From: Fragilaria crotonensis | Lineage: Eukaryota > Bacillariophyta > Fragilariophyceae > Fragilariales > Fragilariaceae | NCBI GenBank assembly: GCA_022925895.1 | Contig: JAKSYS010000183.1 | Coordinates: 1 to 64,000, forward strand | Reading direction: 5' to 3' | DNA: 64,000 bases | In this document: positions 1-64,000 of the stretch, piece after piece | Position numbering within the stretch: the first letter of the stretch is position 1 | How the letters are laid out: the number at the start of each line of letters is the position of its first letter | Program-made: the position numbers and the translations under genes | The notes under the pieces: model-generated | Database searches by the model: none | What the model saw: only the letters and a program-made list of their open reading frames with translations | Told to the model about the DNA's origin: nothing

Positions 1-167
1 AACCCAGTTTGCTCTTATGTTGAACTGTTGAACCGCTTCTGCAATAGCACCGTGACCTCCGTTCTTTCGAATCAGCGAGACGTAATCAACATGCCTGATC
101 GCCTTGATAGTTCTTTTTCCCGGCGGCATACTTCAAGTGTAACATACGAACACGTCCACTAATCCGG

Positions 168-187
168 CACTCGGAGTACTTGAGTCG
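168..187 (+). promoter_or_regulatory. Conserved palindromic motif upstream of SSP1
   Basis: CACTCGGAGTACTTGAGTCG lies about 90 bp upstream of the SSP1 start and contains the near-palindrome ACTCGGAGT. The same block sits at the same distance before SSP3 (about 38225-38242) and SSP2 (about 57113-57132), inside a conserved upstream region of about 220 bp. A cis-regulatory role is inferred from position and conservation only. Confidence 0.3.
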
Positions 188-275
188 CTCAAGGCCTCAA
201 CATGTGTCGAAGGTGTAACGTTGCAGTATAATCGTCACATTCATTCATCTTTGCACTTGAAGAACACCAACAAAA

Positions 276-691
276 ATGAGGATGAGGTTGATTCTAGCCG
301 CTCTTCTGCTCGCATACGCTGACGGTCAAGGTAACAATGTATGTTTCGTATGTGGCGAGGGCAAAGTCGTCACGCTCCCCGATGCATCATCTCGCTTCCG
401 GGCTTCGACACTGTTTCGTGTCAAATCCTGGCGAGCGCTGGTCTCAACGGAGCGTTTCCGGACGACCAGTGCGCCCAACTTCCAGCCTTGGTGGATGCTA
501 CTTGTGCTTGTGCGCCAGAGGCGACTGCCGCGCCAGTGTCCAAGTCGCCGACCACTAACGCGCCACATTATGGAAAAGGGAAAGGCAAAGGAAATTCACC
601 AGGTGAAAAGGTACCCACCCCGGCACCTATCAAGACAGCTACTAAGAAGCCTACCACCGAACAAGACAACGGAAAAGGAAAAGGGAAATGA
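276..691 (+). pseudogene. SSP1: secreted Cys-rich protein, frameshifted copy
   Basis: The start MRMRLILAALLLAYADGQ is a clear signal peptide. It is followed by the family motif CFVCGEGKVVT. One C is missing near position 384 compared with the copy at 57222, which throws the reading into another frame. The original reading resumes from about 385 and ends at 691 after a GKGKGK tail, as in the intact paralogue SSP3. The protein would be extracellular or cell-wall located; its function is unknown. The pattern C-x2-C, C, C, C-x-C suggests a small disulfide-bonded domain, and I recall similar Cys-rich secreted proteins in diatoms. The single-base loss could be a real mutation or an assembly error. 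The reading that simply stays open from 276 to 806 after the shift is not the family sequence for most of its length. Confidence 0.7.
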
Positions 692-1171
692 AGAGGCTTT
701 TCGTGACTTGCTGGAGATTGGTTGTTTCATGAGAGCGAGCGTTCCTGGTCAAGGGAAATCCAGGATGGAGATCACCTGTACTACATTGAACCTTAATGCA
801 GAGTAATAGGTAGGGTTCCTTGGTGAGTGAAATCCCAGAGAGAAATCTTAACTTTCGATATCCCTATGATAAGCGTAGTCCACTAGTGAAGATTACAACG
901 ACTACAAATAACACATCCATTGAGAACCTCGTCTTAGCATCTGCATTACTGATGAGGCCGCGGCGTCGAAGTTTCTGGTAACACCTACTTCAGAAGAATG
1001 TTGACATTTAATCGTTCGCAAATTGGATTACTAGACCAAAAAACCATTTTTCAGCCACATCAAGTCAGATTCGCCTTCACCAAAAATATCTTTTAGTCAA
1101 CGGGCTTTGTATATTGAATTACAGTAGCCCGGACCTGACTACTTTTCGCACATTACAATGTCCATATTTCC
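692..1171. other. Convergent intergenic region between SSP1 and P1
   Basis: About 480 bp lie between the tail-to-tail genes SSP1 and P1. I see no gene. The same sequence follows SSP2 at about 57640-58117. It probably holds both 3' untranslated regions; no distinct terminator motif is visible. Confidence 0.6.
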
Positions 1172-2846
1172 TCATGACTGGGCTGTGTTGTCGGGTTTGC
1201 ACAATGGAAGGAAAATTAATGCCAATGGTGGCAAGATAATCGTCACAACGTAAACCGGCACAACGTAATTCAGCAGGTAGATTGTTTGGTGTGTTTTTGT
1301 CGAGGCTTCCCTGTCGAATGAATGTCATATCGTACACTTCTGGAATCGAGTCAGTTCTTTCTTGGATGTTTGAGAATGTACGTCTCCTTCACAACGTCGT
1401 CAAGCTGTACAATGAATTCAAATGCCAAAGAATTCAGCACCATGTCAAGAGGATCCGGTGTTACAAAAATAACGTAAAATTGATGCCGTAGACGACAAGT
1501 TCATACCACGTGTCCATAATGCCGTCCAGGAATAGAGCCCCGAGGAGCCAACGTTCATCACGGAAGACCACCCGAACCAATTAACTTTTCTTTAGCCTTG
1601 CTTCCCATCTTGAAACAATTCTAACGAGGTAAATGCATCCGATGGCGCCTGCAACACTCTTTTGTATAGGGTTTGCGCTCATCGGGCACCCATTCGGTAG
1701 TGTGTAAGTTTGTACAGAGTAAACAAGTAAAAGAGCCGGAAGCGCCACTTGTACGGCAATAACAAGGATGAGGAGAAACTGTGTCCATCGTTTTCTCCAC
1801 GGATAAGACTCCTCGTGCATGGACATGATAGTCAATATTCCGATGTCCGACCGAGACTTCATGAATTCCTGCCACTTCACGGAAAGGGCGGTTCTGGCTG
1901 CGGTTTTGCAGCGAACCATTCCAGACGAGAATCGAAGATGGTATTGTTTTTTGCCGAGAACGCAAAAAAACACTAAATTTTGGCTTTGTATCTGCCATCC
2001 GATCTAATCGAGCGGCGGCACGAGCCAGAATTGCTGCCTTTCGATCGCAATCCTCAAGTTTTGATTCGCATTCTCAACGGCGGCTTTGGCGTCAGCAACA
2101 GCGTCTGTGTTGGCAGGGTTATAAAAATTGTCATAGGCTTCAGCAGTGACATCGGCTAGATATGCCTCGGCCCGATCCGCGAGTTCATAGGCAGCAGAGG
2201 CATTGACAGCAGCGATATCGGCAAGTTTACGGGCTTTAATGGCAATTTCGAACACAAAAATGTAATCGTCTTTCAGAAGAGAGGCAGAGAGAGAACGGAG
2301 ATAAGAATCGAAATCGACACCTTCAAGGGCTTCAGCGTCACCTTTAAAGCATTCAAGGACGGCACCTTTGACGGTACCAAGAAGACGAAGGAAATCGTCT
2401 TCCTGATCAGCAGCCTGGGGGTCAGCGACTCCCTGGGCGGCAGCGAGGGCATCGTCTTCTCCGCCATGAGGAGCTTGAGGATCAGCATCTCCCTGATCAG
2501 CTGCCTGGGGATCAGCTTCCTGGGGATCAGCTTCTCCGCGATCAACAGCCTGGGGTTCAGCTTCTCCGCGACCAACTGTCTGAGGATCAGCGTCTCCGCC
2601 ATCGGCAGCTTCGATGTCAGCGTCTCCACCTTCAGCAGCTTGAGGATCATCGTCTCCGAAATCAGGAGCTTCGATATCATCGTCTCCGAGATCAGGAGCT
2701 TCGAGATAAGCGACTACCGGAACAGCAGCATGGGGATCAGCGTCTCCGCCATTAGCAGCTTCGATATCAGCGTCTCCAACATCAGCAGCTTGGAACTCAG
2801 GGACATCGCCAGCTTCAGGCACTCTTGGAGGGTTGACGCCGTCCAT
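1172..2846 (-). pseudogene. P1: acidic-repeat multi-pass membrane protein, frameshifted copy
   Basis: From ATG at 2846 a 280-residue frame carries the family N-terminus: MDGVNPP, then about fifteen 10-residue acidic repeats of the ADGGDADPQA type, then an Ala-rich helical region. It then shifts frame near 2060. The rest is spread over other frames down to a TGA at 1172-1174 and includes MKSRSDIGILTIMSMHEE and membrane segments. Compared with 58118-59829, several 1-5 bp deletions and one of about 40 bp (near 1350) break this copy. However, the repeat region here is intact where the other copy is broken. The family has no function that I recognise. Probable location is a cell membrane. Confidence 0.65.
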
Positions 2847-3436
2847 GTCCTTGTTGCCTCCGATTCAATTCCAAGGTACTTGTTGACGTTGATGTCGATG
2901 AATAAATGTCCATTTATTTTCCGCGAGAGACACCACTTACGATGCGCTTCCAACCTAGGCTAGGTATCATGTCAAGAGTGTTATCTCATGCATCGTTAGA
3001 TTTAAGCCTGCTCCGTTGAGAGCGTCCGGCCTTCGATTTCACAACCGTTCCGTCACGTCCCTGGTCATACATAACTGGAGACTGGTTGTCATCTCCGTCA
3101 ATTAATCATATAGTACTCTCCAAAGCAGGAGTGCTTGCTCTCCACTCCTGGACAAAGTATGAATCGAGGTATGATATCAATCAAAGATATTGGAGGCTTC
3201 CTTCCAGTGGATGAGGCTCCTGCATCGCGGAACCTTTTAAAAACACTTGTGTTGTCTATGTAGATATGGCACTTTGGCATCAGATGCGTTGAGTTTTTAT
3301 CTCGTTTTATGATACACGCAAAGCACACTCGCGACGCTGCATCATGTCGTATCATGATAGTACTTGGTACTCCAGTGCTGTACTCGGAGTTGTAGGTAAA
3401 TACGATTGGTACAGTAGCAATACTACCGGTAGAGTA
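2847..3436. promoter_or_regulatory. Head-to-head spacer upstream of P1 (bidirectional promoter candidate)
   Basis: This non-coding spacer separates the P1 start from F3a, now displaced by Copia-A. It is repeated with high identity upstream of P2 (30684-31376), P5 (53894-54821) and P1' (59830-60434). Conserved blocks include the segment around TTAAGCCTGCTCCGTTGAGA and the one around TCCACTCCTGGACAAAG. Conservation between divergent genes suggests shared control. No TATA or initiator element can be assigned with confidence. Confidence 0.4.
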
Positions 3437-3441
3437 CTTTA

Positions 3442-4018
3442 AGTCGAAGTACACGGCGTGATCAAGGCTGCGTACTAGTTCGTAGAAACGGGTTCGGTCA
3501 AACGTAGAGTTTTAATTCTAGAGTTGTTTAACTTATGAGCTTATTTCTAGGTTTCACTTTGAAGGAACCAATTCAATCCAGGTCCGATTGAATCTTGCCG
3601 GTCTACTTTCTGAAGTTAGAGGGTTGTGGAGTGAACATTCAAAGCCTTCATCCCACTGATAAGGGCATTGAAATGTCAGCTCCAACTCCACTTGAGAGAA
3701 TTGTGATCGCAACAACTGTTGCAACATGGCCAGACTTAGCCAACATGATGAGGGACACATGTTGGAAATTAGTTGACACATGAAGGAGATTGCAGTTGAA
3801 TTGCACTGGGTTAATGTGGACAAATTGTTGTTGTAGAAAAGGAGGTTATGAGGGCGGAAAGCAGTCCGGGACAACTGTAGTTTTTGTACTGGCGATTCGC
3901 CGTATACAGTTGGCGTGAGAATCTTCGTATCCAAAGCCGGATGGGACTCAGCTGGCGGGGACGAAATTTCAACGTCAATAACGGCACAATAACAGCTGTT
4001 AGCTGCTGTACCTTGACT
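3442..4018 (-). repeat. Copia-A 3' LTR (left copy)
   Basis: This 577 bp LTR matches 27666-28248 and 60435-61021. Its ends are AGTC...GACT, not the usual TG...CA. The position is fixed by the CTTTA target duplication on the outer side and the polypurine tract on the inner side. It is 6-10 bp shorter than the other two copies because of scattered small deletions. Confidence 0.92.
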
Positions 4019-4160
4019 CTCCCTCTAATTCAATGAAACAAGAAATAGATTAGTGATGGTGTGGTGAAAATGTAGGACAGGAACAATAAACATATGGGCT
4101 TGCAGGATAAGAGGGAACACTCTTAAATCCACCCAACACAAATGCGGCGGTGCCGCTGTG

Positions 4161-6761
4161 TCACCAACCTTGAGCGAGCTGAATGCGTTCGAAAACTTCG
4201 ATTGAGGCCCCTAAGGTAGTCAGCCAACTGGTCAGTGGTTGCAATCTTGAGCACTTCAACATCTCCGTTGCGGACGTGGTGCCAAAAGAAGTGCCACTTA
4301 ACCAGGAAGTACTTGGTGCGATTAGTAATGCGTTGCTTGGTAGCGAGCAGCAGAGCACCGTTGTTGTCTTCAAAGACTCGGCAGCGAATGGTAGACTTGA
4401 AGTCAGGTGGCAGAGTCAATTCCTTGCAGATTTCTCCAAGAAGATCACGGCGGCAACAGAGTCCTCATGCTTGCACTGAGAGCAGAGTACTCAGATTCCA
4501 ATGTGGACAGGGAGATCTCTGTTTGTAGTTGAGACTTCCAGAGAATTGACAACCTCCAAGGGTGATGATGTAGCCGGTGGACTTGGCGCTGGTGTCAGAA
4601 TGATCAGGGTCACGGCCATGGAGTCCAGCAAAGTCAGCATCAACATAGCAATCAAGAGAGAGGTCTCCAGTTGGAGTCACAACAGTTCCTTTGTCAGCAG
4701 TGCGATGCAAGTAGCGGACAATGCGTTTGATTGCAATGGCATGGCTCTTCTTGGGAAATGATTGAACCTGGCAACTTGACTTACTGCAAATGTGATGTCT
4801 GGTCTTGTGTTTGTTGACAAGTACAAGAGCATTCCAACAATAGAGCGGTAGTTCCAGAACTCATCCATGGGTTCTCCATCAGGGTCAATCCCAAGGCATG
4901 CTTGCAAAGCAGGGGTGTGGTTGGAGTTGCAGTCTTGAAGTCCTGTTGCCTTTATGATCTTCTGGATCAAACCCTTTTGTGTTAGGGTGACAGTGTTGGC
5001 AACTTCATCCTTGACAAACTTGATTCCAAGGAAGTCAGTGAATGTGCCTTCACGAGTGAACTCCAAACCCAAATCAGTAAGATCCTGGAACAGTTTGTCA
5101 AGATCCTTCTTGTTGGAGTAGGCAATCCCAAGATCATCAACATAGAGAACAATCATGATGGTCTTGTTGTACAAGAGGCATGAGTCTGTGGCACTCTGCT
5201 TCAATCCTTGGAGGAGGAGTGCTTCACGAATGTGTTGATACCAAAGGTGGGGAGCAACCGAGAGACCGTAGAGGCTCTTAACAAGTCGTAGGCAAGTCCT
5301 TTGGTCGCTTGGCTGATCAGACTTGAAGCCCCTTGGCATGTGGATCCAGACTGGGTCAGTTAGGTTAGCTTGGACAAAGGCACTGCTGAAGTCAATGGAG
5401 CAAGTTTGCCATCCCAATGTTAGGGACAAGACAAGGAACAATCGAACTGAACTCCAAGCAACAACTGGGGCATAGGTTTCAGGTTCTCCTTCTTCAAGGT
5501 CGCCGAACACAGTAGCGCTTTGTACTTGGTGATTTCTCCATCTGGGGATCGCTTGCGCCGAAATACCCAAGTCCCTGGGAGAATCTTGGTCTTGGCTTCA
5601 AGGATACTGACTTCCTTCCAAGTTCCATTCTTCTCAAGGCTTGCCACTTCTGGCAGCTGCCTCCATCCACTTGGTCACATGCTCAATGTCAGCCATAGCT
5701 TGGTCAAAGCTCAGAGTGTCAGGATCAGATGCAGTTGCCTTGAAGGCAGTTGGGGAAAGGATGATTCCATTTTCCTCAAAGATCCAAGCACTTGGAGAAG
5801 CCATATCCATGGCCTTGAGTGTTGTCGTATCCAAGGCGTTTGGAAGGCGCGAATGCGGTTGGACCGGCGCGGAGACGTTGGTGGCGGAGGCGACTTGACT
5901 GGTTGCTCGTCACGTGGTGAGTCAAGGGCGAATGCATTGTCTGGAACAGGACTCTCCTCGCTTCAGACATTGGGGTCTGCTCCAGAACTGGGGAGAAGAT
6001 TGGCTGATGAACTGGGGAGATCGGGGTAGCTGGTACCTTGCGTGGCGTCGCTTCCTTGGCTTGTGAGCTGGAGTGTGGACGGCGTTGCAGAGATGAAGTT
6101 CTGATGTCTGGCGTTGGAGGAGACTGGAGAGACCGAAGATCGATAGACTGCTCCCTCGTTTGAGACATCAAAGGAGTTGGAGGCCTTGGAGTGAGCAATG
6201 GAGAACTTGGCAATGGCTGTTGGACAGTTGGTGTCCTGGGTGGAGCCTCAGCCAAGGGAGGAACTGGGAGTTGTTCAATTGCAACAGCTTCATCCATGGA
6301 GGCAGCAACTCTTGTTTGGTTCTCATTGATGGCTTCTGTAGCTTGGGAGTCCATTCGCGCTTCCTCTGTAGCATCATTGTCGTCGTCGTCATCGAATGGG
6401 AACTGATATCTTGAGTCGCCAAACAAACGGGCCCAACGCGTTGTATTAAAATCCGGGAGGGCATCCACATTAGTAGCCACCGTTGCAAACCAGTCATCAA
6501 ACACAATGTGATATTGGGGAGTGATGTACCCTGTCTCTGGATTCAAAACCAAGGGGACTGTGCTTGCATGCTTCTTGAGAGCCCCATGTTGACGCAGCGG
6601 ATGGACCGAGGCTTCCAGCGAGGCAGCTTCTTTCCATCTGCAATGGTTTTCAAGAGCATACAGGACATCCCCACACATGCAGATCATGATACTTCCTTTG
6701 CTCCCACCTGGACTTAGTGAAGACATCACTTGGACAGAGACCTGTTGCCAAATCAGAACAT
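4161..6761 (-). pseudogene. pol: Copia-A pol, 3' half (integrase C-terminus, RT, RNase H), frameshifted
   Basis: Fragments in all three minus frames reproduce, in order, the integrase tail (HDLHVWGCPVYAL-like), a Pro/Ser-rich linker, the reverse transcriptase with YVDD, and RNase H (YVDADFAGLHG). They end at a TGA near 4161. The equivalent region at 61164-63818 is one open frame, so this copy has about ten small indels. RT and RNase H copy the element RNA inside particles. The region stops abruptly at 6761, where the CACTA-like element is inserted in the integrase catalytic domain; integrase coding resumes at 18583. Confidence 0.88.
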
Positions 6762-6916
6762 CATCTAAGGGTGCCAAAACCAAGTCGGCTCTTGGATATG
6801 AAAAACCAATTATCTTTGATATGAGAATTTTTTGTTCATAATTTTTACCTAAAATATAGGTAAAAACTTAGGACTAAAGAGCTTGTACATCATGTGTATG
6901 AAGCGGGTTTCCTCGT

Positions 6917-7126
6917 ATTCCTGAACTCTGAAATTTATGTTTCCTGAACTTTTTCATCTCTTGCATAGGAGCTCATACTTTGCATTCCTGAGCTCCAAAA
7001 TTTCAATTCCTGAATTTCACTGACTCATTTTTACTAACACTCGGGTGGGATTCCTGAACTCTTGGACTCTAAATATATGAACTATACCACTTCTTCATTT
7101 GTGATCATGAATTTCAATTCCTGAAT
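6917..7126. repeat. Subterminal repeats, left end of the CACTA-like element
   Basis: Six copies of an ATTCCTGAACT-like motif lie within 210 bp: about 6917, 6941, 6984, 7006, 7051 and 7116. The reverse complement AGTTCAGGAAT recurs near the right end at 18371-18500. Such clustered subterminal motifs are the transposase binding sites in known CACTA elements; binding here is inferred. Confidence 0.6.
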
Positions 7127-7339
7127 TAGATATTCGAAAAGAAGAAGTTTGCTGTGTAGTGTGTATGAAGTAATCACCTCAGTAGTTCTGAGCTGACATT
7201 GTTCATATAATAGATGTTATTGTCGCTCATTTTAACTTTTGTTGGAGATTAGTTTTAATTGTGCCTATTCGTGTGGCTTTGATGAACCATTCTACTATTC
7301 ATTACTAAGTGTCTGATCTATTCTAAACTGCCTCCACTT

Positions 7340-8935
7340 TCAATTCACTGTAGACAAGTTCAGGAGCAAGATGACTGGAGTAGTTATCATCCTCCTCATC
7401 AGAGTCCTCGCAAATACATCAATGCACTTGTGTGGGCGTTTCTTACCCTTGTCATCAAATTGTTTCCTGACCCCGGCCAGACTCCTTTTTCCTTCTGGAC
7501 AGAAACATTTTAAGTAGTTCCTGGTTGAATGTTGGGGTGGTTGATTTCTTTCTATCATTCTTGATGGCCATGTATAATTCATCGTATTTCCTCATTCCCA
7601 CCTGTGACCAACCACAGCCTCCCCATTATCATGAGCACCCTTGTTCCTGGAGAATGTGTAAAGTGGTGGCTGCCGAACATGGTATTGCAAAGATTGGTCA
7701 GAAGTTAGGATGTGGTTTTTCATTTCATTTAGTATCATAGTGTAACTTACGGGTAGGTTGTTGTTGTCCTCATCAGTCCATGTACCAATTCGCTGTTTCC
7801 AACAAGTGATAACAAAACAAGTCAGTTTCTTGTTGTTTGTTCTGTGACAAACCATTCGGATAAACTTACCATTTTCTCTGTCTTAACTAATTCCGCGAAC
7901 CACCTCTTCCCATAGTTGATCAGGCACAGCAAAATGAATGCTTCATCACTTATGGACAGGATTTTCTTGCTCCATACTTTTCTGTCAGTTGTTGCACAGT
8001 GGTTCTCCATGTTGATAGTGTTATTCCACTTGCTGCCGACAATGCATGGGGCATAGGTGTCTATGATTTGGGCATAGTAGCAGATATTATCCCTCATCTT
8101 GAGGAGGTAACTGGTTTCTTCCTCGCTTCCACTGTATAGGCTGTGTTCATACGTTCCTAAATTGGAAGTGAATCCTCTGGATGCAAGGTGTTTGATGTTG
8201 AATGCAAGTGAGTGTGAGTATGCTCGGCTTTGGCAAAGTACACTCACTTCAATTCCTCACCTTTGAATTTCGTTTGCATGTTTTTATTGCATTGTTCAAG
8301 ATCAGTGTGTGTTTTTACAACTATTCTCCGCATCCCAAGCCACCAGTTTTCGGTTCCTCGAATGTTTGTGTGCTTCATGATAAAGCCACAAAGTGTTTTC
8401 TCATCTTCACTGAAATGAGAATGATAGTCTTTTTGATAGAACTTCCAAATAGAGAACACGTGTTTTTTGATGCAAGTCTTGATCACACTGATTTGATTCT
8501 CTTCTGTATTTTCCGTCATGCTCATGTCCACTATGCTGCTTAGCCCTGGAACCGATGATGTTAGTTGGCTGTCACTTGATTTCCCGACTTTAATAGTTGA
8601 AGGTAGGGATGGTGGATTTCCGTATGCATGCTTCTGTCCTAGTTTTGCATCCATTTTCCGTGGCACTTCTTCCTCCTCCTCCTCCTCGTTGTCACTTTGA
8701 ATCAGATCATTGGGATCTGTGGTCACTGCTTCACGCCTCTTATGAAGTCTCTCCTTTGTTTCCTAGAGCTGGGCTTTAAGGCAGTCATGCCTGCTGCTGT
8801 TTGGTGTGCCATTGATGCCATGGTTGTATTTGTGGTGCTTCCTTGTTGTGTGAAAACTTTCCGATTGTGCGCCAAATTTTGAACACTGAAAATCCTGTTT
8901 GTGGGATAGTCTTTTTGCCACCATTTGAATTTCAT
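7340..8935 (-). CDS. Spliced accessory gene of the CACTA-like element, unknown function
   Basis: A multi-exon minus-strand gene can be traced from ATG at 8935 (MKFKWWQKDYPTNRIFSVQN). Good introns are visible. One runs from GTGAGG at about 8254 to an AG just before the exon starting GFTSNLGTYEHS. One covers 7869-7793 (GTAAGT...CAG). A third starts with GTAAGT at 7750. A 42 nt exon (7792-7751) encodes RIGTWTDEDNNNLP. The protein has an acidic stretch (seven Glu near 8670) and Trp-rich and Lys/Arg-rich segments (SIWKFYQKDYHSHFSEDEK). Two apparent 1 bp shifts, near 8732 and 7590, interrupt it. It starts 500 bp from the divergent transposase gene. By position it could be a DNA-binding accessory protein like TNPA of En/Spm, but I see no recognisable domain. 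Confidence 0.5.
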
Positions 8936-9435
8936 ACCAAGTACCGAGTTGGTATGTAGGTTCTACACATTCATGCAGGGTTTTCAAATTTTGAATTCAT
9001 ACCACACCCCTTCATTTTTTACATACACCAAAAATGTACCGAAAGTAAATGTACAATTTGAATGCACGCTTTCCGAACTTCTGTTTAGTGAATCTGTGTC
9101 CTGTCAATTTCAACACCTCATTTTCACTTCACTCGTCCTCTTCAAAACCCTTTCTTCAAAACCTTCTCTTCAAAATGTTGTCCTCGTCTGCTTCCTCAAA
9201 GGCACCCCTGCTCTTCTGTCAAAACCCTTCTGCCTGAATTTCAACAAGAAACCCTTTTCCAATCAAGCAGCATATACACAGCATATTGATAGAAACATCG
9301 GGTGTTATAATTTCATTGTGAAGAAATCACACCATGCAGCAACACATGGGGCTTCTGCTTCACACCGTCGCGTCTTCATGAGGATGGGAATATCACATGC
9401 ACAAGTAACAAGAGGCCTGCCCTTTAAGGCGACAT

Positions 9436-12924: not shown

Positions 12925-13088
12925 ATGTTTACCCCTGGTGAGTCACTGTTGCTCCTTAAGGACCTTTTCGACTGAGGATCAAACACCCATTGTGTCTGTG
13001 GGGAACGTATCGCAGCTTATGTACCTTTTAGTATGAATGAGGATGGTTTCCTTCAGGAACAGGTACAAATCCATCCGTGTTTCCAACG

Positions 13089-16405: not shown

Positions 16406-16798
16406 TTTGTTGGTTGAAATATGAATAATCCTCCAACTGGTGTGCGTATACAACTCTTGAGCATGCGAACAGACAACTGACAAAAAGAACCAATACCGGT
16501 AGATCAATCTGGTTTGATTCACTCAAATCAATGAGAATCTCTCGCAGATGACCGAATATTGGATTCTAGATGACAGATTGCCTTACAAACTCAATCGAAG
16601 CACGCACACAAGACGAAGTACTTATTCCCTCAATTAACAACAAAATGAGAAGCACAACACTTGTCGACAAGGATCCTAATTATGAAAGGAGAAGAAGAGG
16701 ATGTGAGATTGAAAGCTGGAAAATACAATCATGTGCAATGACACAACGTCAACAAGAAAGACTGGAGTACAGTACCAGCACAATGTTGTACGGAAGCC

Positions 16799-18500: not shown

Positions 18501-18582
18501 GGGAATCCTGAAATTTTTCCAATAAATATGATAAAAATTCTTGTATCAACTATGGTACTTAGTTTTGGCACCCTTAGATGAT

Positions 18583-47376: not shown

Positions 47377-47708
47377 TGTTGGGAAAGAACAACCGATTAC
47401 GCGCGACATCGCACCTCCGGGTGCAAATGAGGTTGCGAAAGAACAAGTAAAAGGTAAAGACGAGATACGTGACCTAACGTGGGCCGACATAGTGAAAATG
47501 CCCCCGCGTGAAACGAAGCAGAACGTACTACGAGGAAGAGAAGGTAAAAAAAGGATAAGTTTCGAGCGCACTTTCTCGCAACAATCCCGTTAGTAGAACC
47601 GAAGTTTGATTGACTTCCGACTGCTATCAACATTGTCTACACCGCCTGGAAAAGCAATAAGGAGTTAAACGCTCCATCATATTGTAGGCGGAATAGCTAT
47701 TTGCAACA
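47377..47708 (+). repeat. Copia-B 5' LTR
   Basis: The 332 bp LTR has TG...CA ends. It carries an open frame (DLTWADIVKMPPRETKQNVL) that in the 3' LTR forms the end of pol. The following sequence TTGTTGCGAGAAAGG (47709-47723) would be the primer-binding position. Confidence 0.92.
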
Positions 47709-47790
47709 TTGTTGCGAGAAAGGTACAATTCCTGTATTTATACATCAGACGCATTTTCACTAACGTATCGTTCCTGCCCAAACCCGATTA

Positions 47791-51600: not shown

Positions 51601-52122
51601 CAGGGATACAAGGTGACAGAGAGTACGCTACAACAGGACAACGAAAGTGCAATCAAGGTGGAGAAGAACGGACGGATGTCGGCTGGACAGAAGTCTAGAC
51701 ACATCGACGTTAGGTATTTTTGGATTAAAGATCGGGTGGAGTCAAGCGGAATCACTATACAGCATTGTCCCACCCTCGAGATGTTAGCGGATTTTTTTAC
51801 CAAACCTCTACAAGGAAACCTGTTCCGCCGCTTCCGCGACGTCGTGCTAGGGTACAGTCACATCGACACCCTTCGGCGCGACCCCGCCGTACCGTTCGAG
51901 GAGCGTGTTGGGAAAGAACAACCGATTACGCGCGACATCGCACCTCCGGGTGCAAATGAGGTTGCGAAAGAACAAGTAAAAGGTAAAGACGAGATACGTG
52001 ACCTAACGTGGGCCGACATAGTGAAAATGCCCCCGCGTGAAACGAAGCAGAACGTACTACGAGGAAGAGAAGGTAAAAAAAGGATAAGTTGCGAGCGCAC
52101 TTTCTCGCAACAATCCCGTTAG
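48676..52122 (+). pseudogene. pol: Copia-B pol: integrase fragment, RT with YVND, RNase H, LTR-encoded tail
   Basis: The frame PDIATLKGKTTRAGTATHTP (48676 on) leads into the integrase core (VLCVDFFFVQGHPFLHTIS; LHVDHEFACVRND; HVGEIERSVCTVKERL). A long acidic Asp/Glu linker follows to 50425. One frameshift near 50400 precedes the RT (DVGTADIAGAYLKAYMKDF; WYVNDMKISHV; FGKMTVTRGKEHTFLGM) and RNase H (TWVDASYAVHPDMKSHTGG; SSTEAELVGASDYL; QDNESAIKVEKNG). The RT active-site YVDD reads YVND, losing a metal-binding Asp. The last 72 residues are encoded by the 3' LTR and end SQQSR at 52122. From 48700 to 49700 codons strongly end in C. Confidence 0.88.
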
Positions 52123-52237
52123 TAGAACCGAAGTTTGATTGACTTCCGACTGCTATCAACATTGTCTACACCGCCTGGAAAAGCAATAAGGAGTTAAACG
52201 CTCCATCATATTGTAGGCGGAATAGCTATTTGCAACA
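51906..52237 (+). repeat. Copia-B 3' LTR
   Basis: This LTR is the same length as the 5' LTR, with one clear substitution (TTTCGAGC in the 5' copy, TTGCGAGC here). It encodes the pol C-terminus on the plus strand. On the minus strand it supplies the last codons and stop of the interrupted P5 gene. Confidence 0.92.
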
Positions 52238-53893: not shown

Positions 53894-54821
53894 GATCTAT
53901 TGCCTCCGATTCAATTCCACGGTACTTTTGACGTTGATGCCAATGAATATTGTCCTCGCAATTTTGCGTTTGAAACACCACTTAGAATGTGCTTTCAACC
54001 GATGATTAATAGTGTATCATGCAAAGAGTGTAATCTCATGCATCGTCAGATTTAAGCCTGCTGCGATAAGAGCGTTCGGCCTCCGATTTCACAGCCGTTC
54101 CGTCAAGTCTCTGATCATACAGAACTGGACACTGGAGTGGTTTGGTCTTCTCCGTCAATCAATCATGTATTACTCTGCAATCAGGAGTGCTTGCTCTCCA
54201 CTCCTTGACAAAGTATGAATCGAGGTATGATATCAATTGAAGATTTATGAGGCTTCACTTCCAGTTGATGGTGCTCCAACATCGCGGAACATTTTAAAAC
54301 CACTTTTTTTGTCTATGTACACGTGACATATATGGGGATCAGATGCGTTGAGTTTTTTACCTCGTTTTTCTGATATCATACACAATACAGGCTGTGACGC
54401 TGCATCATGTCATCATGTCGTATCATGATAGTACTCGGTGCTCCAGTGCTGTACGCCGGAGTAGTCATAAATACGATTGGTACAGTAGCAATACTAACGG
54501 TAGATTACTTTAGACTTAACTCGGAGTAGACTCCATCAGAGTGCTCGGAGTATACTGTACTTTGAGTACAGTAGCTTGTCGGTTCAGTGCGATTGCAACA
54601 ACGGGAACCCAGACGAATACATCGCTTTTCGAAGGTATGTGTTATGCGGTCTCCACTGCCCGCATTCCCTATTCAGTCCTAGCCGCGAACGCATCTCCAT
54701 CACTCGAGTCTGTAGAACTGTTCTTGCCATCAAGACATTTGGCATCAAGGTTGGAGAGAAGGAAGCGTGATTCGAGGACATCCCTTCGATTGAACCTGCA
54801 CAGGTAGCTGTTTGTTGCACA
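53894..54821. promoter_or_regulatory. Head-to-head spacer between P5 and F3c
   Basis: This is the complete, uninterrupted form of the divergent spacer (928 bp), shared with 30684-31373 plus 32788-32983. It contains GTACTTTGAGTACAGTAG (about 54556-54573), the empty form of the Copia-A target region (about 54500-54520) and no insertion. Short frames in the last 280 bp are not supported as genes. Confidence 0.45.
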
Positions 54822-55713
54822 ATGTTGCCTTTTCGCACGACTCCCAAGAAGTCAGCATGTTCTCTGCTGTCACCGGCACGGTCACTAGCACTGGTACAGT
54901 TGCTGATACTCGGACTCATTGTAGTATTCACCTGGGTCAGCTCCGGTTCAGGCCATGTTAGGTACTTGTACCAGTTCTACCTTACGCATGCCAATGAGCT
55001 TATGGATTGGTCTGAATCACGGCCCTATACACTAGGAAGAAGACTTCAAAATGATTCTGGAAAGGGTGATGATGGCATGTATTTCTGCATCGGTGAGGAT
55101 GGCAGCCCCGTTGCCATGGGACAGAATGGCGGAGGAAGGCGAACATTTCGACGACTGCGCGACGCATCTCCACCATATTGCAGTGATTTGGTAGGTGGCG
55201 GATATCCTGACGATGTTGGCAATTCGCAATATCCTTTTCCCCCGCCAAATTATCCTGTTGCTAGTCCGGCCACAATTGAAGTCGATCCTCCTACTTTGCA
55301 GTCGGGCGCTGCCCCATTTGCACCAGATCGGTCGCCTATAGCGTCACCCACTTTTGTCAGTGAAACGCTTTCCCCGCATCCTACCTTTCCCGATGTATTC
55401 CTCAATACTACCCGGCGGCATCTCATTACGTGTCAAGTAATCTGTGCGCTCCCACCATTTCCGGAACGAGTCACTAGTTCTGGACTACGAAAACGAATTG
55501 TTTGGAGTCGCCGAATGGCCGAGAGGCTTGGAACATAGTTGCGTCTTCTTCAAAGACAGGGAAGACGTGTTGATTCACAGCGTGACGAAGGCGTCCCCTT
55601 TGATCATCCACACTCCTGGAAAGTTCTATGGTTGTCTCGACCTTTTGATCGAAAAGGTGGGTGGCCTTAGTCAAAGAAGATACCTAAAGGCCAATGAGGT
55701 CAAGAAACACTAG
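54822..55713 (+). CDS. F3c: single-pass membrane protein with Pro-rich ectodomain
   Basis: ATG at 54822 (MLPFRTTPKKSACSLLSPAR). A signal anchor lies at about 21-40, then SGKGDDGMYFCIGEDGSP and the Pro-rich NSQYPFPPPNYPVASP. The first frame runs to a TAG at 55536-55538. With GT at 55437 and AG at 55469-55470 (34 nt) it joins, in phase, the frame SLVLDYENELFGVAEWPRGL to KKH at 55713, giving 285 residues, exactly as in F3b. The single G-to-A change that creates the TAG is only Gly to Ser in the joined frame, which favours that reading. It is divergent from P5 and followed by the conserved spacer and SSP2. Confidence 0.62.
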
Positions 55714-56945
55714 AGTTGCGATGGCGCGCCTGTCGCATATGATTCTTTGGAAAATAAACATTCGGGATTTTGTGGGCATAGAAATTAGGATTAAAATGTA
55801 GTATTCTATCATACAGTATACGTAGAAATACCGGTTGTAGTCCTTCGAGTCCTCAGTAGGCAAGAAAGGTCTCAATGATGGCATCTTTGTTTCAATCGTC
55901 GGCGATTCGGTTCCTTTTGTTTGAGGGTTACGGAAGTTTAGGAGTGTTGTTCCTGCGATGCAAAATCGAAAACGAGGAGCTGCTTCAACCAAAGATCCTG
56001 CATTTGATACGGCCACTACAAGAAAGGATGATCTTACACAATCTTCAACAGTTGAAGGTTCGGATTGGAGGTCATGGTCGATGGTGGCGTTGCAATTCGT
56101 GTGGAACACTCGAGCTCTGAATCCCGATTCCGAATTGCAGGTATGCGAAGCACTAAACCTCAATGTCAGACTATTGGCAACGTATGCCATGCCGACATGG
56201 CTATAGGCGTGGTCTCGGGGTTTTCCGATGGCATCGGGGTAAACATTGTGAGTTTACAGTTTGTCTTTGGAAGTTGGGAGTTGAATCACCGCGATGTTCG
56301 CTGTGCGGTCACATCAGCGAAACTTCGAACGATTTATCATACCGACTTGGTACAACCTGGTATCGCGTTCGTTTCTGGTTGGTTGGCAATCCATCAGCTG
56401 CAACGAATGCGAAGCGTTGCATTTCATTCTGGCTCGGCTTAACGATCAAAGTGGGAGTGATTATTAGAAATGACATATTTCTGGATTATCCGAACCTGCT
56501 TCTTGTAAGTGCCCGCATTGGTGTCCACCGAGCAGCGAGTCGTTGTCACGTGGTACCAGTAGGTCTACGTATAGCTCTTACCTCCTACTATAGTCGAACT
56601 GTACAGATGTGTACATGTCCCACAATGCCTATGGCCTATGGCCTATGCCTATGGCCTATGGCATACCGGGATCCATGTACCAGTCGTACTCGGACTACAA
56701 ATTTTGCAGTTCATAGTTCATATGGCTGCATGGCTGCAAACCTGTTCGAACGCCGTGGGACGCATGATAATTGGCGTAGCGGTACTGTATGCATACTTTG
56801 ACACTCGTCTCGAATGACTCCACAATTTCGTCCATACAACTTTTGTCATACTCCAAACGATGCAGGTTGCTCCCACGTTGTGGTCGGTGCTCCACTCTTA
56901 CCTTTGGTGCATCTTCAATCTTCCGAATCAGATAAGAGTATGTAG
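55714..56945. repeat. Conserved spacer between F3c and SSP2
   Basis: The first 730 bp match 33876-34340 plus 34727-34980, without the solo LTR. Then comes a (CCTATGG)n-like microsatellite at about 56625-56662. No gene is recognised. The region from 56946 onward matches window position 1. Confidence 0.6.
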
Positions 56946-57221
56946 AACCCAGTTTGCTCTTATGTTGAACTGTTGAACCGCTTCTGCAATAGCACCGTGA
57001 CCTCCGTTCTTTCGAATCAGCGAGACGTAATCAACATGCCTGATCGCCTTGATAGTTCTTTTTCCCCGGCGGCATACTTCAAGTGTAACATACGAACACG
57101 TCCACTAATCCGGCACTCGGAGTACTTGAGTCGCTCAAGGCCTCAACATGTGTCGAAGGTGTAACGTTGCAGTATAATCGTCACATTCATTCATCTTTGC
57201 ACTTGAAGAACACCAACAAAA

Positions 57222-57752
57222 ATGAGGATGAGGTTGATTCTAGCCGCTCTTCTGCTCGCATACGCTGACGGTCAAGGTAACAATGTATGTTTCGTATGTG
57301 GCGAGGGCAAAGTCGTCACGCTCCCCGATGCCATCATCTCGCTTCCGGGCTTCGACACTGTTTCGTGTCAAATCCTGGCGAGCGCTGGTCTCAACGGAGC
57401 GTTTCCGGACGACCAGTGCGCCCAACTTCCAGCCTTGGTGGATGCTACTTGTGCTTGTGCGCCAGAGGCGACTGCCGCGCCAGTGTCCAAGTCGCCGACC
57501 ACTAACGCGCCACATTATGGAAAAGGGAAAGGCAAAGGAAATTCACCAGGTGAAAAGGTACCCACCCCGGCACCTATCAAGACAGCTACTAAGAAGCCTA
57601 CCACCGAACAAGACAACGGAAAAGGAAAAGGAAATGAAGAGGCTTTTCGTGACTTGCTGGAGATTGGTTGTTTCATGAGAGCGAGCGTTCCTGGTCAAGG
57701 GAAATCCAGGATGGAGATCACCTGTACTACATTGAACCTTAATGCAGAGTAA
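57222..57752 (+). CDS. SSP2: secreted Cys-rich protein
   Basis: A 176-residue frame begins MRMRLILAALLLAYADGQ, a signal peptide. Cysteines lie at 23, 26, 49, 66, 77 and 79 in the pattern C-x2-C, C, C, C-x-C, giving three possible disulfides. A Thr/Pro/Ala-rich tail has two Lys-Gly clusters (about 101-106 and 133-136). In SSP3, and in the left copy, translation stops right after the second cluster. Here one G fewer in GGAAAAGGAAATGA lets the frame run on for 40 extra residues (NEEAFRDLLEIGCFMRA). The extra tail is therefore probably not native. Function unknown; probably extracellular. Convergent with P1'. Confidence 0.78.
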   Translation: MRMRLILAALLLAYADGQGNNVCFVCGEGKVVTLPDAIISLPGFDTVSCQILASAGLNGAFPDDQCAQLPALVDATCACAPEATAAPVSKSPTTNAPHYGKGKGKGNSPGEKVPTPAPIKTATKKPTTEQDNGKGKGNEEAFRDLLEIGCFMRASVPGQGKSRMEITCTTLNLNAE

Positions 57753-58117
57753 TAGGTAGGGTTCCTTGGTGAGTGAAATCCCAGAGAGAAATCTTAACTT
57801 TCGATATCCCTATGATAAGCGTAGTCCACTAGTGAAGATTACAACGACTACAAATAACACATCCATTGAGAACCTCGTCTTAGCATCTGCATTACTGATG
57901 AGGCCGCGGCGTCGAAGTTTCTGGTAACACCTACTTCAGAAGAATGTTGACATTTAATCGTTCGCAAATTGGATTACTAGACCAAAAAACCATTTTTCAG
58001 CCACATCAAGTCAGATTCGCCTTCACCAAAAATATCTTTTAGTCAACGGGCTTTGTATATTGAATTACAGTAGCCCGGACCTGACTACTTTTCGCACATT
58101 ACAATGTCCATATTTCC

Positions 58118-59829
58118 TCATGACTGGGCTGTGTTGTCGGGTTTGCACAATGGAAGGAAAATTAATGCCAATGGTGGCAAGATAATCGTCACAACGTAAA
58201 CCGGCACAACGTAATTCAGCAGGTAGATTGTTTGGTGTGTTTTTGTCGAGGCTTCCCTGTCGAATTCGAATGTCATATCGTACACTTCTGGAATCGAGTC
58301 GTATTTCTTGGAATCTTTGAAAAACGAGTCGTCTTTCTTGGAATGTTTGAGAATGTACGTCTCCTTCACAACGTCGTCAAGCTGTACAATGAATTCAAAT
58401 GCCAAAGAATTCAGCACCATGTCAAGAGGATCCGGTGTTACAAAAATAACGTAAAAATTGATGCCGTAGACGACAAGTTCATACCACGTGTCCATAATGC
58501 CGTCCAGGAATAGAGCCCCGAGGAGCCAACGTTCATCACGGAAGACCACCCGAATTCCAATTAACTTTTCTTTAGCCTTGCTTCCCATCTTGGAAACAAT
58601 TCTAACGAGGTAAATGCATCCGATGGCGCCTGCAACACTCTTTTGTATAGGGTTTGCGCTCATCGGGCACCCATTCGGTAGTGTGTAAGTTTGTACAGAG
58701 TAAACAAGTAAAAGAGCCGGAAGCGCCACTTGTACGGCAATAACAAGGATGAGGAGAAACTGTGTCCATCGTTTTCTCCACGGATAAGACTCCTCGTGCA
58801 TGGACATGATAGTCAATATTCCGATGTCCGACCGAGACTTCATGAATTCCTGCCACTTCACGGAAAGGGCGGTTCTGGCTGCGGTTTTTGCAGCGAACCA
58901 TTCCAGACGAGAATCGAAGATGGTATTGTTTTTGCCCGAGAACGCAAAAAAAAACACTAAATTTTTGGCTTTGGTATCTGCCATCCGATCTAATCGAGCG
59001 GCGGCACGAGCCAGAATTGCTGCCTTTCGATCGCAATCCTCAAGTTTTTGATTCGCATTCTCAACGGCGGCTTTGGCGTCAGCAACAGCGTCTGTGTTGG
59101 CAGGGTTATAAAAATTGTCATAGGCTTCAGCAGTGACATCGGCTAGATATGCCTCGGCCCGATCCGCGAGTTCATAGGCAGCAGAGGCATTGACAGCAGC
59201 GATATCGGCAAGTTTACGGGCTTTAATGGCAATTTCGAACACAAAAATGTAATCGTCTTTCAGAAGAGAGGCAGAGAGAGAACGGAGATAAGAATCGAAA
59301 TCGACACCTTCAAGGGCTTCAGCGTCACCTTTAAAGCATTCAAGGACGGCACCTTTGACGGTACCAAGAAGACGAAGGAAATCGTCTTCCTGATCAGCAG
59401 CCTGGGGTCAGCGACTCCTGGGCGGCAGCGAGGCATCGTCTTCTCCGCCATGAGGAGCTTGAGGATCAGCATCTCCTGATCAGCTGCCTGGGGATCAGCT
59501 TCCTGGGGATCAGCTTCTCCGCGATCAACAGCCTGGGGTTCAGCTTCTCCGCGACCAACTGTCTGAGGATCAGCGTCTCCGCCATCGGCAGCTTCGATGT
59601 CAGCGTCTCCACCTTCAGCAGCTTGAGGATCATCGTCTCCGAAATCAGGAGCTTCGATATCATCGTCTCCGAGATCAGGAGCTTCGAGATAAGCGACTAC
59701 CGGAACAGCAGCATGGGGATCAGCGTCTCCGCCATTAGCAGCTTCGATATCAGCGTCTCCAACATCAGCAGCTTGGAACTCAGGGACATCGCCAGCTTCA
59801 GGCACTCTTGGAGGGTTGACGCCGTCCAT
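58118..59829 (-). pseudogene. P1': family P membrane protein, one frame break
   Basis: Two frames cover the gene. 59829-59260 gives MDGVNPPRVPEAGDVPEF and the acidic repeats, then loses register near 59475 because of four single-base losses in homopolymers. The body resumes within 59242-58118 (374 residues). That part has EIAIKARKLADIAAVNASAA, KWQEFMKSRSDIGILTIMSM, membrane segments (LLILVIAVQVALPALLLVYS; VAGAIGCIYLVRIV; VVYGINFYVIFVTPDPLD), AFEFIVQLDDVVKETY and the end CKPDNTAQS. A short tandem duplication encodes KKDDSFFKDSKKYDS. The left copy is intact exactly where this one is broken. Confidence 0.75.
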
Positions 59830-60434
59830 GTCCTTGTTGCCTCCGATTCAATTCCAAGGTACTTGTTGACGTTGATGTCGATGAATAAATGTCCATTTAT
59901 TTTCCGCGAGAGACACCACTTACGATGCGCTTCCAACCTAGGCTAGGTATCATGTCAAGAGTGTTATCTCATGCATCGTTAGATTTAAGCCTGCTCCGTT
60001 GAGAGCGTCCGGCCTTCGATTTCACAACCGTTCCGTCACGTCCCTGGTCATACATAACTGGAGACTGGAAAAGTTGTCATCTCCGTCAATTAATCATATA
60101 GTACTCTCCAAAGCAGGAGTGCTTGCTCTCCACTCCTGGACAAAGTATGAATCGAGGTATGATATCAATCAAAGATATTGGAGGCTTCCCTTCCAGTGGA
60201 TGAGGCTCCTGCATCGCGGAACCTTTTAAAAACACTTGTGTTGTCTATGTAGATATGGCACTTTGGCATCAGATGCGTTGAGTTTTTTATCTCGTTTTTA
60301 TGATACACGCAAAGCACACTCGCGACGCTGCATCATGTCGTATCATGATAGTACTTGGTACTCCAGTGCTGTACTCCGGAGTTGTAGGGTAAATACGATT
60401 GGTACAGTAGCAATACTACCGGTAGAGTACTTTA
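59830..60434. promoter_or_regulatory. Spacer upstream of P1' (right copy)
   Basis: Same as 2847-3441 including the CTTTA at 60430-60434 just before the Copia-A LTR. Here the sequence AAAAG missing at about 3080 in the left copy is present, as in the P2 spacer. Confidence 0.4.
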
Positions 60435-61021
60435 AGTCGAAGTACACGGCGTGATCAAGGCTGCGTACTAGTTCGTAGAAATCCGGGTTCGGTCAAACGT
60501 AGAGTTTTAATTCTAGAGTTGTTTAACTTATGAGCTTATTTCTAGGTTTCACTTTGAAGGAACCAATTCAATCCAGGTCCGATTGAATCTTGCCGGTCTA
60601 CTTTCGCGAAGTTAGAGGGTTGTGGGAGTGAACATTCAAAGCCTTCATCCCACTGATAAGGGCATTGAAATGTCAGCTCCAACTCCACTTGCAAGAGTAA
60701 ATTGGTGATCGCAACAACTGTTGCAACATGGCCAGACTTAGCCAACATGATGAGGGACACATGTTGGAAATTAGTTGACACATGAAGGGAGATTGCAGTT
60801 GAATTGCACTGGGTTAATGTGGACAAATTGTTGTTGTAGAAAAGGAGGTTATGAGGGCGGAAAGCAGTCCGGGACAACTGTAGTTTTTGTACTGGCGATT
60901 CGCCGTATACAGTTGGCGTGAGAATCTTCGTATCCAAAGCCGGATGGGACTCAGCTGGCGGGGACGAAATTTCAACGTCAATAACGGCACAATAACAGCT
61001 GTTAGCTGCTGTACCTTGACT
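60435..61021 (-). repeat. Copia-A 3' LTR, right copy
   Basis: This is the 587 bp LTR with AGTC...GACT ends, flanked outside by CTTTA and inside by the polypurine tract. It is the longest of the three copies; the others lack a few bases each. Confidence 0.92.
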
Positions 61022-61163
61022 CTCCCTCTAATTCAATGAAACAAGAAATAGATTAGTGATGGTGTGGTGAAAATGTAGGACAGGAACAATAAACATATGG
61101 GCTTGCAGGATAAGAGGGGAACACTCTTAAATCCACCCAACACAAATGCGGCGGTGCCGCGTG

Positions 61164-63796
61164 TCACCAACCTTGAGCGAGCTTTCGAATGCGTTCGAAA
61201 ACTTCGCGATTGAGGCCCTTGGTAAGGTAGTCAGCCAACTGGTCAGTGGTTGCAATCTTGAGCACTTCAACATCTCCGTTGCGGACGTGGTGCCAAAAGA
61301 AGTGCCACTTAACCAGGAAGTACTTGGTGCGATTAGTAATGCGTTGCTTGGTAGCGAGCAGCAGAGCACCGTTGTTGTCTTCAAAGACGCGGCAGCGAAT
61401 GGTAGACTTGAAGTCAGGTGGCAGAGTCAATTCCTTGCAGATTTCTCCAAGAAGATCACGAAGTGGCAACAGAGTCCTCATGCTTGCACTGAGAGCAGAG
61501 TACTCAGATTCCAATGTGGACAGGGAGATCTCTGTTTGTAGTTGAGACTTCCAGAGAATTGGACAACCTCCAAGGGTGATGATGTAGCCGGTGCGGGACT
61601 TGGCGCTGGTGTCAGAATGATCAGGGTCACGGCCATGGAGTCCAGCAAAGTCAGCATCAACATAGCAATCAAGAGAGAGGTCGCCAGTTGGAGTCACAAC
61701 AGTTCCTTTGTCAGCAGTACGATGCAAGTAGCGGACAATGCGTTTGATTGCAATGGCATGGCTCTTCTTGGGAGAATGATTGAACCTGGCAACTTGACTT
61801 ACTGCAAATGTGATGTCTGGTCTTGTGTTTGTTGACAAGTACAAGAGCATTCCAACAATAGAGCGGTAGTTCCAGAACTCATCCATGGGTTCTCCATCAG
61901 GGTCAATCCCAAGGCATGCTTGCAAAGCAGGGGTGTGGTTGGAGTTGCAGTCTTGAAGTCCTGTTGCCTTTATGATCTTCTGGATCAAACCCTTTTGTGT
62001 TAGGGTGACAGTGTTGGCAACTTCATCCTTGACAAACTTGATTCCAAGGAAGTCAGTGAATGTGCCTTCACGAGTGAACTCCAAACCCAAATCAGTAAGA
62101 TCCTGGAACAGTTTGTCAAGATCCTTCTTGTTGGAGTAGGCAATCCCAAGATCATCAACATAGAGAACAATCATGATGGTCTTGTTGTACAAGAGGCATG
62201 AGTCTGTGGCACTCTGCTTCAATCCTTGGAGGAGGAGTGCTTCACGAATGTGTTGATACCAAAGGTGGGGAGCAACCGAGAGACCGTAGAGGCTCTTAAC
62301 AAGTCGTAGGCAAGTCCTTTGGTCGCTTGGCTGATCAGACTTGAAGCCCCTTGGCATGTGGATCCAGACTGGGTCAGTTAGGTTAGCTTGGACAAAGGCA
62401 CTGCTGAAGTCAATGGAGCAAGTTTGCCATCCCAATGTTAGGGACAAGACAAGGAACAATCGAACTGAACTCCAAGCAACAACTGGGGCATAGGTTTCAG
62501 GTTCTCCTTCTTCAAGGTCGCCTCGAACACAGTAGCGCGCTTTGTACTTGGTGATTTCTCCATCTGGGGATCGCTTGCGCCGAAATACCCAAGTCCCTGG
62601 GAGAATCTTGGTCTTGGCTTCAAGGATACTGACTTCCTTCCAAGTTCCATTCTTCTCAAGGCTTGCCACTTCCTTGGCAGCTGCCTCCATCCACTTGGTC
62701 ACATGCTCAATGTCAGCCATAGCTTGGTCAAAGCTCAGAGTGTCAGGATCAGATGCAGTTGCCTTGAAGGCAGTTGGGGAAAGGATGATTCCATTTTCCT
62801 CAAAGATCCAAGCACTTGGAGAAGCCAAGTATCCATGGCCTTGAGTGTTGTCGTATCCAAGGCGTTGTGGTGCTGCGCGAATGCGGTTGGACCGGCGCGG
62901 AGACGTTGGTGGCGGAGGCGACTTGACTGGTTGCTCGTCACGTGGTGAGTCAAGGGCGAATGCATTGTCTGGAACAGGACTCTCCCTCGCTTCAGACATT
63001 GGGGTCTGCTCCAGAACTGGGGAGAAGATTGGCTGATGAACTGGGGAGATCGGGGTAGCTGGTACCTTGCGTGGCGTCGCTTCCTTGGCTTGTGAGCTGG
63101 AGTGTGGACGGCGTTGCAGAGATGAAGTTCTGATGTCTGGCGTTGGAGGAGACTGGAGAGACCGAAGATCGATAGACTGCTCCCTCGTTTGAGACATCAA
63201 AGGAGTTGGAGGCCTTGGAGTGAGCAATGGAGAACTTGGCAATGGCTGTTGGACAGTTGGTGTCCTGGGTGGAGCCTCAGCCAAGGGAGGAACTGGGAGT
63301 TGTTCAATTGCAACAGCTTCATCCATGGAGGCAGCAACTCTTGTTTGGTTCTCATTGATGGCTTCTGTAGCTTGGGAGTCCATTCGCGCTTCCTCTGTAG
63401 CATCATTGTCGTCGTCGTCATCGAATGGGAACTGATATCTTGAGTCGCCAAACAAACGGGCCCAACGCGTTGTATTAAAATCCGGGAGGGCATCCACATT
63501 AGTAGCCACCGTTGCAAACCAGTCATCAAACACAATGTGATATTGGGGAGTGATGTACCCTGTCTCTGGATTCAAAACCAAGGGGACTGTGCTTGCATGC
63601 TTCTTGGAGAGCCCCATGTTGACGCAGCGGATGGACCGAGGCTTCCAGCGAGGCAGCTTCTTTCCATCTGCAATGGTTTTCTCAAGAGCATACACAGGAC
63701 ATCCCCACACATGCAGATCATGATACTTCCTTTGCTCCCACCTGGACTTAGTGAAGACATCACTTGGACAGAGACCTGTTGCCAAATCAGGAACAT
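61164..63796 (-). CDS. pol: Copia-A pol, 3' half, intact reading frame
   Basis: One frame of about 880 residues from the CACTA-like insertion point to TGA at 61164. It holds the integrase C-terminal region (HDLHVWGCPVYAL at about 34-46), a Pro/Ser linker (150-340), and the reverse transcriptase from about 380 (SLEKNGTWKEV; SIDFSSAFVQA; YVDD at 553-556). RNase H follows with YVDADFAG near 719-726, STLESEY near 768 and FEDNNGAL near 812, and the end ADYLTKGLNREVFERIRKLA. All catalytic residues are present. It has no start codon of its own because the integrase is interrupted at 63797; the frame continues into the transposon by chance. Confidence 0.92.
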
Positions 63797-64000
63797 CATC
63801 TAAGGGTGCCAAAACCAAGTCGGCTCTTGGATATGAAAAACCAATTATCTTTGATATGAGAATTTTTTGTTCATAATTTTTACCTAAAATATAGGTAAAA
63901 ACTTAGGACTAAAGAGCTTGTACATCATGTGTATGAAGCGGGTTTCCTCGTATTCCTGAACTCTGAAATTTATGTTTCCTGAACTTTTTCATCTCTTGCA
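63797..64000. mobile_element. Left end of the CACTA-like element, right copy (runs out of window)
   Basis: The terminus CATCTAAGGGTGCCAAAAC at 63797 matches 6762 and the sequence stays identical to the window end. It includes the first two subterminal ATTCCTGAACT-type motifs (about 63952 and 63976). The rest of the element lies outside the window. Confidence 0.9.

Follow-up and report, generated by a model that had tools for sequence, protein, structure and literature searches.

The window analysed here comprises the first 64,000 bases of contig C95 (94,055 bases; JAKSYS010000183.1) of the diatom Fragilaria crotonensis, and the remainder of that contig was analysed together with it. Our analysis indicates that a near-identical unit of about 57 kb probably stands in direct tandem in the genome as the result of a recent duplication (in the order A1-B-A2, perhaps continuing), a reading to which we assign a probability of roughly 0.6 on the strength of the sequence. 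Each unit has a transposon insertion of its own for which the opposite unit has the empty site, and errors cannot yield such a pattern, so two different DNA versions exist and not one sequence with errors. The preliminary description of this stretch had proposed that a single locus was represented twice and that the copies differed through homopolymer-type read errors. The errors remain part of our account, but the single sequence does not, and the alternative offered at the time, a very recent 57-kb tandem duplication, has the better support once the read errors are set aside.

A direct repeat across contig C95

By megablast, bases 56946-94055, the last of which is the contig end, repeat bases 1-41223 from first to last base, in the same order and in direct orientation, as four collinear pieces of 98.2-99.6% identity. 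The contig overlaps itself at a shift of 56,945 bases, its prefix and its suffix being the same over 37 kb, and its layout is A1 (1-41223), B (41224-56945) and A2 (56946-94055). We refer to the copy that starts with A1 as unit 1 and to the copy that starts with A2 as unit 2.

It had been noticed before that the same 7 kb occurs at both ends of the window. A single blastn alignment at 98.4% joins 1-6965 to 56946-64000, with 11 mismatches and 52 gap openings, and the long terminal repeat (LTR) of the Copia-A retrotransposon, its CTTTA flank and the insertion point of a terminal inverted repeat (TIR) element, called CACTA at the time, lie at identical places in both ends. These two copies are real, but position 64000 is only the edge of the window: the sequence past it, which the preliminary description had singled out for checking, repeats 6966 onward to the end of C95 at 94055.

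The assembly consists of 881 contigs and 62,107,879 bases. The available part of the genome announcement describes the draft of strain SAG 28.96 as 61.85 Mb of nuclear DNA in 879 contigs with 47.40% G+C (PMC9476933); the window has 47% G+C by base counts, and the two contigs beyond the 879 would be those of the organelles. The features of the window are given below with the evidence for each in brackets; the gene classes P, F and SSP are described further on.

1-41223, forward strand: segment A, unit 1 copy, A1 (four collinear megablast pieces)
3437-28253, reverse strand: Copia-A retrotransposon with CTTTA target-site duplications, in both units (LTR matches 3442-4020 and 27666-28250)
6759-18583, no strand assigned: 11.8-kb TIR element nested in Copia-A, in both units (TIR and multi-copy match)
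21650-26610, no strand assigned: 4.96-kb transposon private to unit 1 (imperfect TIR of 21 bp, AA duplication, empty site in unit 2)
37747-37749, no strand assigned: empty site in unit 1 for the element found only in unit 2 (comparison with C95 89890-90629)
41212-46820, no strand assigned: three adjoining TIR elements with TTA at every border (including a DDE_Tnp_4 open reading frame, ORF, at 45245-45835)
41224-56945, forward strand: segment B, between A1 and A2 (no near-identical second copy among the matches listed)
46969-47320, no strand assigned: diverged LTR-like repeat flanked on each side by AAGTG (paired copies, spaced by about 6.8 kb, match its stretch 46973-47313)
47372-52242, forward strand: second Copia element (333-bp LTR match; intact GTCTG target-site duplication around 47377-52237)
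52226-57752, no strand assigned: P5-F-SSP gene order running from B into A2 (order matched at 35.5-38.9 kb; homology with contig C119)
56946-64000, forward strand: start of A2, which reaches 94055 beyond the window (blastn and megablast match to A1)

Transposon insertions private to one unit

The element found only in unit 1 has an imperfect TIR that starts CATCTAAGGG and a 2-bp target-site duplication, AA. Elsewhere in the assembly it is represented, among the matches listed, by two nearly identical, interrupted copies (on C214 and C181) and by more distant ones. The element found only in unit 2, at C95 89890-90629, is 740 bases long, with a perfect 30-bp TIR and TA on both sides, and its empty site is in unit 1; it occurs at full length in at least eight other places at 96-99% identity (40 of 49 candidates scored). 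Even where reads are lacking, transposon empty sites of this kind can distinguish a pair of real copies from a single copy that has read errors.

Small differences between the units

Over 36,161 aligned positions, A1 and A2 differ by 181 small indels (1 to 9 bases) and 42 substitutions. Twelve of the substitutions are clean, in that no indel and no other substitution lies within 10 bases of them; they amount to about 0.03% of the positions, and some of them may also be errors. Single-base events account for 121 of the 181 indels, and 102 of these lie in homopolymer runs of at least two bases and 70 in runs of at least three, compared with 46% and 15%, respectively, of all bases in such runs. 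Unit 1 is the shorter copy at 123 indels and unit 2 at 58. The shortfalls are unevenly placed, with 99 of the 123 in unit 1 falling within the first 20.5 kb, the left part of the contig (expected share 0.565), and 29 of the 58 in unit 2 within the last 3.2 kb, at the right contig end (expected share 0.089). The identity of the shorter copy also switches in blocks: there are 36 runs, where 20,000 shuffles average 79.8, and without the last 3.2 kb there are 33, where shuffling averages 47.8.

The earlier statement that the end copies differ mostly by short indels agrees with our counts for 1-6965 alone, where 49 small indels (unit 1 being shorter in 43) stand beside 12 substitutions. The LTR pair of Copia-A is identical over 589 bases in unit 2, and in unit 1 the two LTRs are 579 and 585 bases long. 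A further difference, of 28 bases near 1353, corresponds to a tandem repeat of about 30 bases that is present once in unit 1 and twice in unit 2 (C95 58301-58331). It falls between two alignment pieces and is excluded from all indel and substitution counts; contig C119 has the single-repeat state there, as unit 1 does, and the difference may be a third real one.

As an outside reference we used a MAFFT alignment of 8 kb of the 11.8-kb TIR element with eight rows, namely both units and six copies from other contigs, chosen out of 24 matches to the element. All eight rows have private deletions, between 2 and 11 each, with ten in unit 1 and three in unit 2. At the indels between the units where the six other copies agree, it is the shorter unit that departs from them (unit 1 nine times, unit 2 three), and 33 further events between the units lie where the six disagree. 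MAFFT finds 15 substitutions between the units in the same 8 kb and blastn five, the excess being mostly two clusters at gaps.

The small indels look like leftover, unpolished Nanopore errors, since they are mostly of one base, located in homopolymers, clustered by copy and seen also in transposon copies on other contigs. Residual Nanopore R9 homopolymer indels that persist in repeats after short-read polishing are a known kind of artefact, and C95 resembles that class in each of these respects; it does not cover the two transposon insertions or, perhaps, the 28-base difference. According to the available part of the announcement, Nanopore R9.4.1 reads (N50 17.8 kb) were assembled with Canu, polished with Pilon using Bowtie2 and passed through Redundans against redundant contigs of the diploid (PMC9476933). 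The errors probably survived Pilon because the short reads aligned to the copy that they matched better.

These differences bear on the genes of the region, which form a repeated P-F-SSP array (35325-36833, 52226-53893, 54822-55538, 57222-57752 and homologues). The P proteins are acidic and repeat-rich, with hydrophobic stretches by eye, and are accompanied by F proteins and by SSP proteins, which are small and contain cysteines; four P-F-SSP representatives that were scanned had no Pfam match at E 0.01. Much as first described, P1 is longer at the left end by ORF length, at 280 amino acids against 189 at the right, and Copia pol is open over 817 amino acids at the right end only. The right copy had also been said to lack the stop at the tail of the SSP gene, which we do not find: the SSP ORFs 276-806 and 57222-57752 share an equivalent stop, are 176 amino acids long each and differ in the middle. 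Users of the draft should be wary of the gene counts, frames and pseudogene calls on C95, because the small breaks in frame here mostly resemble sequencing errors.

Continuity from unit 1 into unit 2

The order A1-B-A2 is supported by matching target-site duplications, by conserved gene order and by the homologous contig C119, which crosses position 56946. Segment B begins within the three adjoining TIR elements, which we take to be Harbinger-like, and these are followed by the diverged LTR-like repeat. Other copies of its stretch 46973-47313 are 87-89% identical, and none exceeds 89% among the 40 of 101 candidates scored; AAGTG, a motif sought after the fact, abuts both ends of the repeat at 46974-47315. 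A chimera through the second Copia element (47377-52237) is unlikely, as the same GTCTG stands on both of its flanks.

Further right, the P-F-SSP order at 52.2-57.8 kb is the same as that at 35.5-38.9 kb, at 75-81% identity. C119 is homologous in the same order over most of 55467-60434, with an 8.7-kb insertion of its own at 56424-56427 and some diverged stretches, and it is 99.2-99.6% identical in three 250-base windows covering 56424-57173 (gaps not counted). A chimera at 56946 is unlikely, as C119 is collinear across the position. Along the F gene at 54618-56436 the similarity to other F copies shifts; a hybrid junction inside the gene was considered as the cause, but the shift can be the result of old gene conversion.

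A probable tandem duplication and its alternatives

C95 resembles a recent tandem segmental duplication in its direct orientation, in its near-identity over tens of kilobases and in lying inside a cluster of repeated genes and transposons. The very low clean divergence, at 12 of 36,161 aligned positions, also speaks for a recent duplication. It has two long, near-identical direct copies on one contig, and these represent two sequence versions, as told from the private insertions and their empty sites. It differs from such duplications in that its outer flanks are not visible and that it is known here from assembled sequence alone. Similar modules follow one another here in one orientation (54638-56183 and 32798-34345, for instance, are 94.9% identical), and such a chain would be a good substrate for unequal exchange. 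The duplication of about 57 kb, inside this region of repeated P-F-SSP modules and nested transposons, would most likely have come about through such an exchange. Each unit's own transposon (of 4.96 kb in unit 1, of 0.74 kb in unit 2) may have been gained after the duplication or may have been present already, as an allelic difference, before the exchange; if the exchange took place between homologous chromosomes, the units would have differed in transposons from the start. Uncorrected Nanopore indels would have been overlaid on this, and polishing reads going to the better-matching copy would have led to complementary deletions. We infer both the physical tandem position in the cell and the mechanism of the duplication. 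If the reading is true, a diatom gene cluster was duplicated here as a 57-kb unit only very recently, with transposons already setting the copies apart, and the case could serve for timing duplication and transposition. The available part of the genome announcement makes no mention of this duplication (PMC9476933), and our literature search, which covered the organism, false duplications and duplications in diatoms generally, was not aimed at it.

Several observations weigh against a tandem duplication. The start and the end of C95 both lie inside the repeated unit, the right end being 9 bases into a transposon, and no unique flank is visible on either side. C119 drops to about 93% over 2.8 kb; as a homologue that falls to this level, it supports the neighbourhood at 56946 and not the tandem itself. 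The stretches 46821-46968 and 47321-47371 are without independent continuity support. GTGTA is also common to both 25-base border windows of the LTR-like repeat, without abutting the repeat ends, and the stretch at this possible seam holds a dispersed repeat that could in principle aid a misjoin. No second B was listed. One of the searches behind this negative is weak, as it listed not even B's own locus (39 of 414 candidates scored). The search with 42000-46056 listed its own locus and otherwise pieces only, the longest 94% identical over 1.8 kb (40 of 110 candidates scored), and the search with 52240-58200 (33 of 33 scored) gave no near-identical copy of the sequence before 56946 beyond its own locus, only a 97% piece on C119.

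The main alternative, possible though clearly less probable, is that A1 and A2 are two alleles of one locus that were set head to tail by the assembler or in later processing, that is, a heterotype false duplication. Redundans removes whole contigs, so a duplicate inside a contig could not be removed by it. Presence or absence of a transposon is a usual allelic difference, and both ends of C95 lie inside the repeat. The strain was treated by its authors as a heterogeneous diploid, hence the use of Redundans, as far as the available part of their report goes (PMC9476933), and this too weighs against the tandem duplication. The available part of a study of diatom genomes reports haplotype-specific insertions of LTR elements, the separation of two Phaeodactylum haplotypes by Canu, and mis-joined super-scaffolds at places with segmental duplications or LTR elements close to the ends of contigs (PMC8147415). 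For false duplication in general, the available part of another study gives a same-scaffold share of 7-24% for earlier assemblies, and in three newer ones the majority is of this kind, at 22.2 of 24.1, 4.8 of 5.8 and 3.4 of 5.6 Mb (PMC9516828). These same-scaffold figures, with the repeat at the seam, weigh against the tandem duplication and the AAGTG pair weighs for it; taken together they leave the balance of probabilities unchanged.

Joined alleles would, however, require a seam within 41224-56945, and nearly all of that stretch has its own continuity support and no gap; its least-supported part, 46821-47371, holds a dispersed repeat whose copies are no more than 89% alike in the scoring given above. 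C95 is like a heterotype false duplication in its two similar versions, its allele-like insertions and its origin in a diploid draft. It is unlike one in that its boundary sequence is matched by another contig and in that there is no gap between the copies: such a gap between copies on one scaffold is given as a primary characteristic in the available part of PMC9516828, and C95 contains no N in its 94,055 bases. The strong MCM loci are single in seven of seven cases, with listed matches between them at most 82% identical, although Redundans may have removed allelic contigs. The silicon transporter genes at C97 27000-36000 and C771 19000-25058, considered as a measure of allelic divergence, are 95.3% identical over 4.7 kb and may be either alleles or paralogues; among the Cpn60 genes, considered as a second test of allelic duplicates, some have close scores (517.8 and 510.3 bits).

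We consider it unlikely that the region is a polymorphic amplicon, in which exchange between homologues set two alleles of the SSP-P-F cluster adjacent in one step and which now has at least three copies or also exists as a circle. An amplicon with three or more copies or a circle would account for why no flank was found. Still more doubtful is a 57-kb circle, or a tandem array of at least three variable units. The match between the prefix and the suffix of C95 is consistent with it, as is the fact that neither end reaches sequence outside the unit, but the two private insertions require at least two kinds of circle, since copies read from one circle alone would differ only by errors, and contig ends inside repeats are usual at an assembly N50 of 89 kb (the N50 being that in the available part of PMC9476933). 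The circular molecule of the preliminary description is thus refuted as a single unrolled circle, unless circles vary, because prefix and suffix match and yet the overlap does not hold the same sequence. One sequence represented twice by read errors only, a homotype false duplication, is extremely improbable: the indel profile and the Nanopore method fit it, but insertions of 4.96 and 0.74 kb with TIRs, target-site duplications and opposite empty sites are not read errors and rule these out as the only cause.

Shared transposons, the gene array and other contigs

The 11.8-kb element nested in Copia-A has the TIR CATCTAAGGGTGCC and an apparent 2-bp target-site duplication, AT, and shares its terminal CATCTAAGGG with the 4.96-kb element. 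Its stretch 8000-16000 is found whole in at least 16 places, both units included, at 98-100%, and a Pfam scan of four of the element's ORFs gave nothing at E 0.01. On C119 a Copia-A LTR is missing from the homologous place, which is nevertheless not a clean empty site, as the sequence on the far side gives no clear match.

Pieces homologous to P-F-SSP occur on C119, C573 and C50. C119 was considered as a third near-identical unit and rejected, the 2.8 kb at about 93% containing 118 mismatches against 15 gap openings. C119 has a direct duplication of its own, of 5.1 kb (55805-60924 and 67701-72801, 97.9%), which includes the 3' part of an F gene and looks older than the repeat on C95, as its substitutions (57) exceed its gap openings (24). 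The same contig carries a tandem array with a period of about 116 bases at 17406-19296.

The silicon transporter ORFs mentioned above have three repeated domains on C97 (1456 amino acids) and two on C771 (1008 amino acids). The best match in the genome to the corresponding Pfam family, PF03842, scores 646 bits, and one of 14 control genomes matches, below the cut-off. On C881, two Cpn60 matches in inverted orientation, with almost the same score, lie at 6645-7532 and 134799-135686; the contig may be that of an organelle and contain a repeat, or the matches may reflect an overlap in the assembly.

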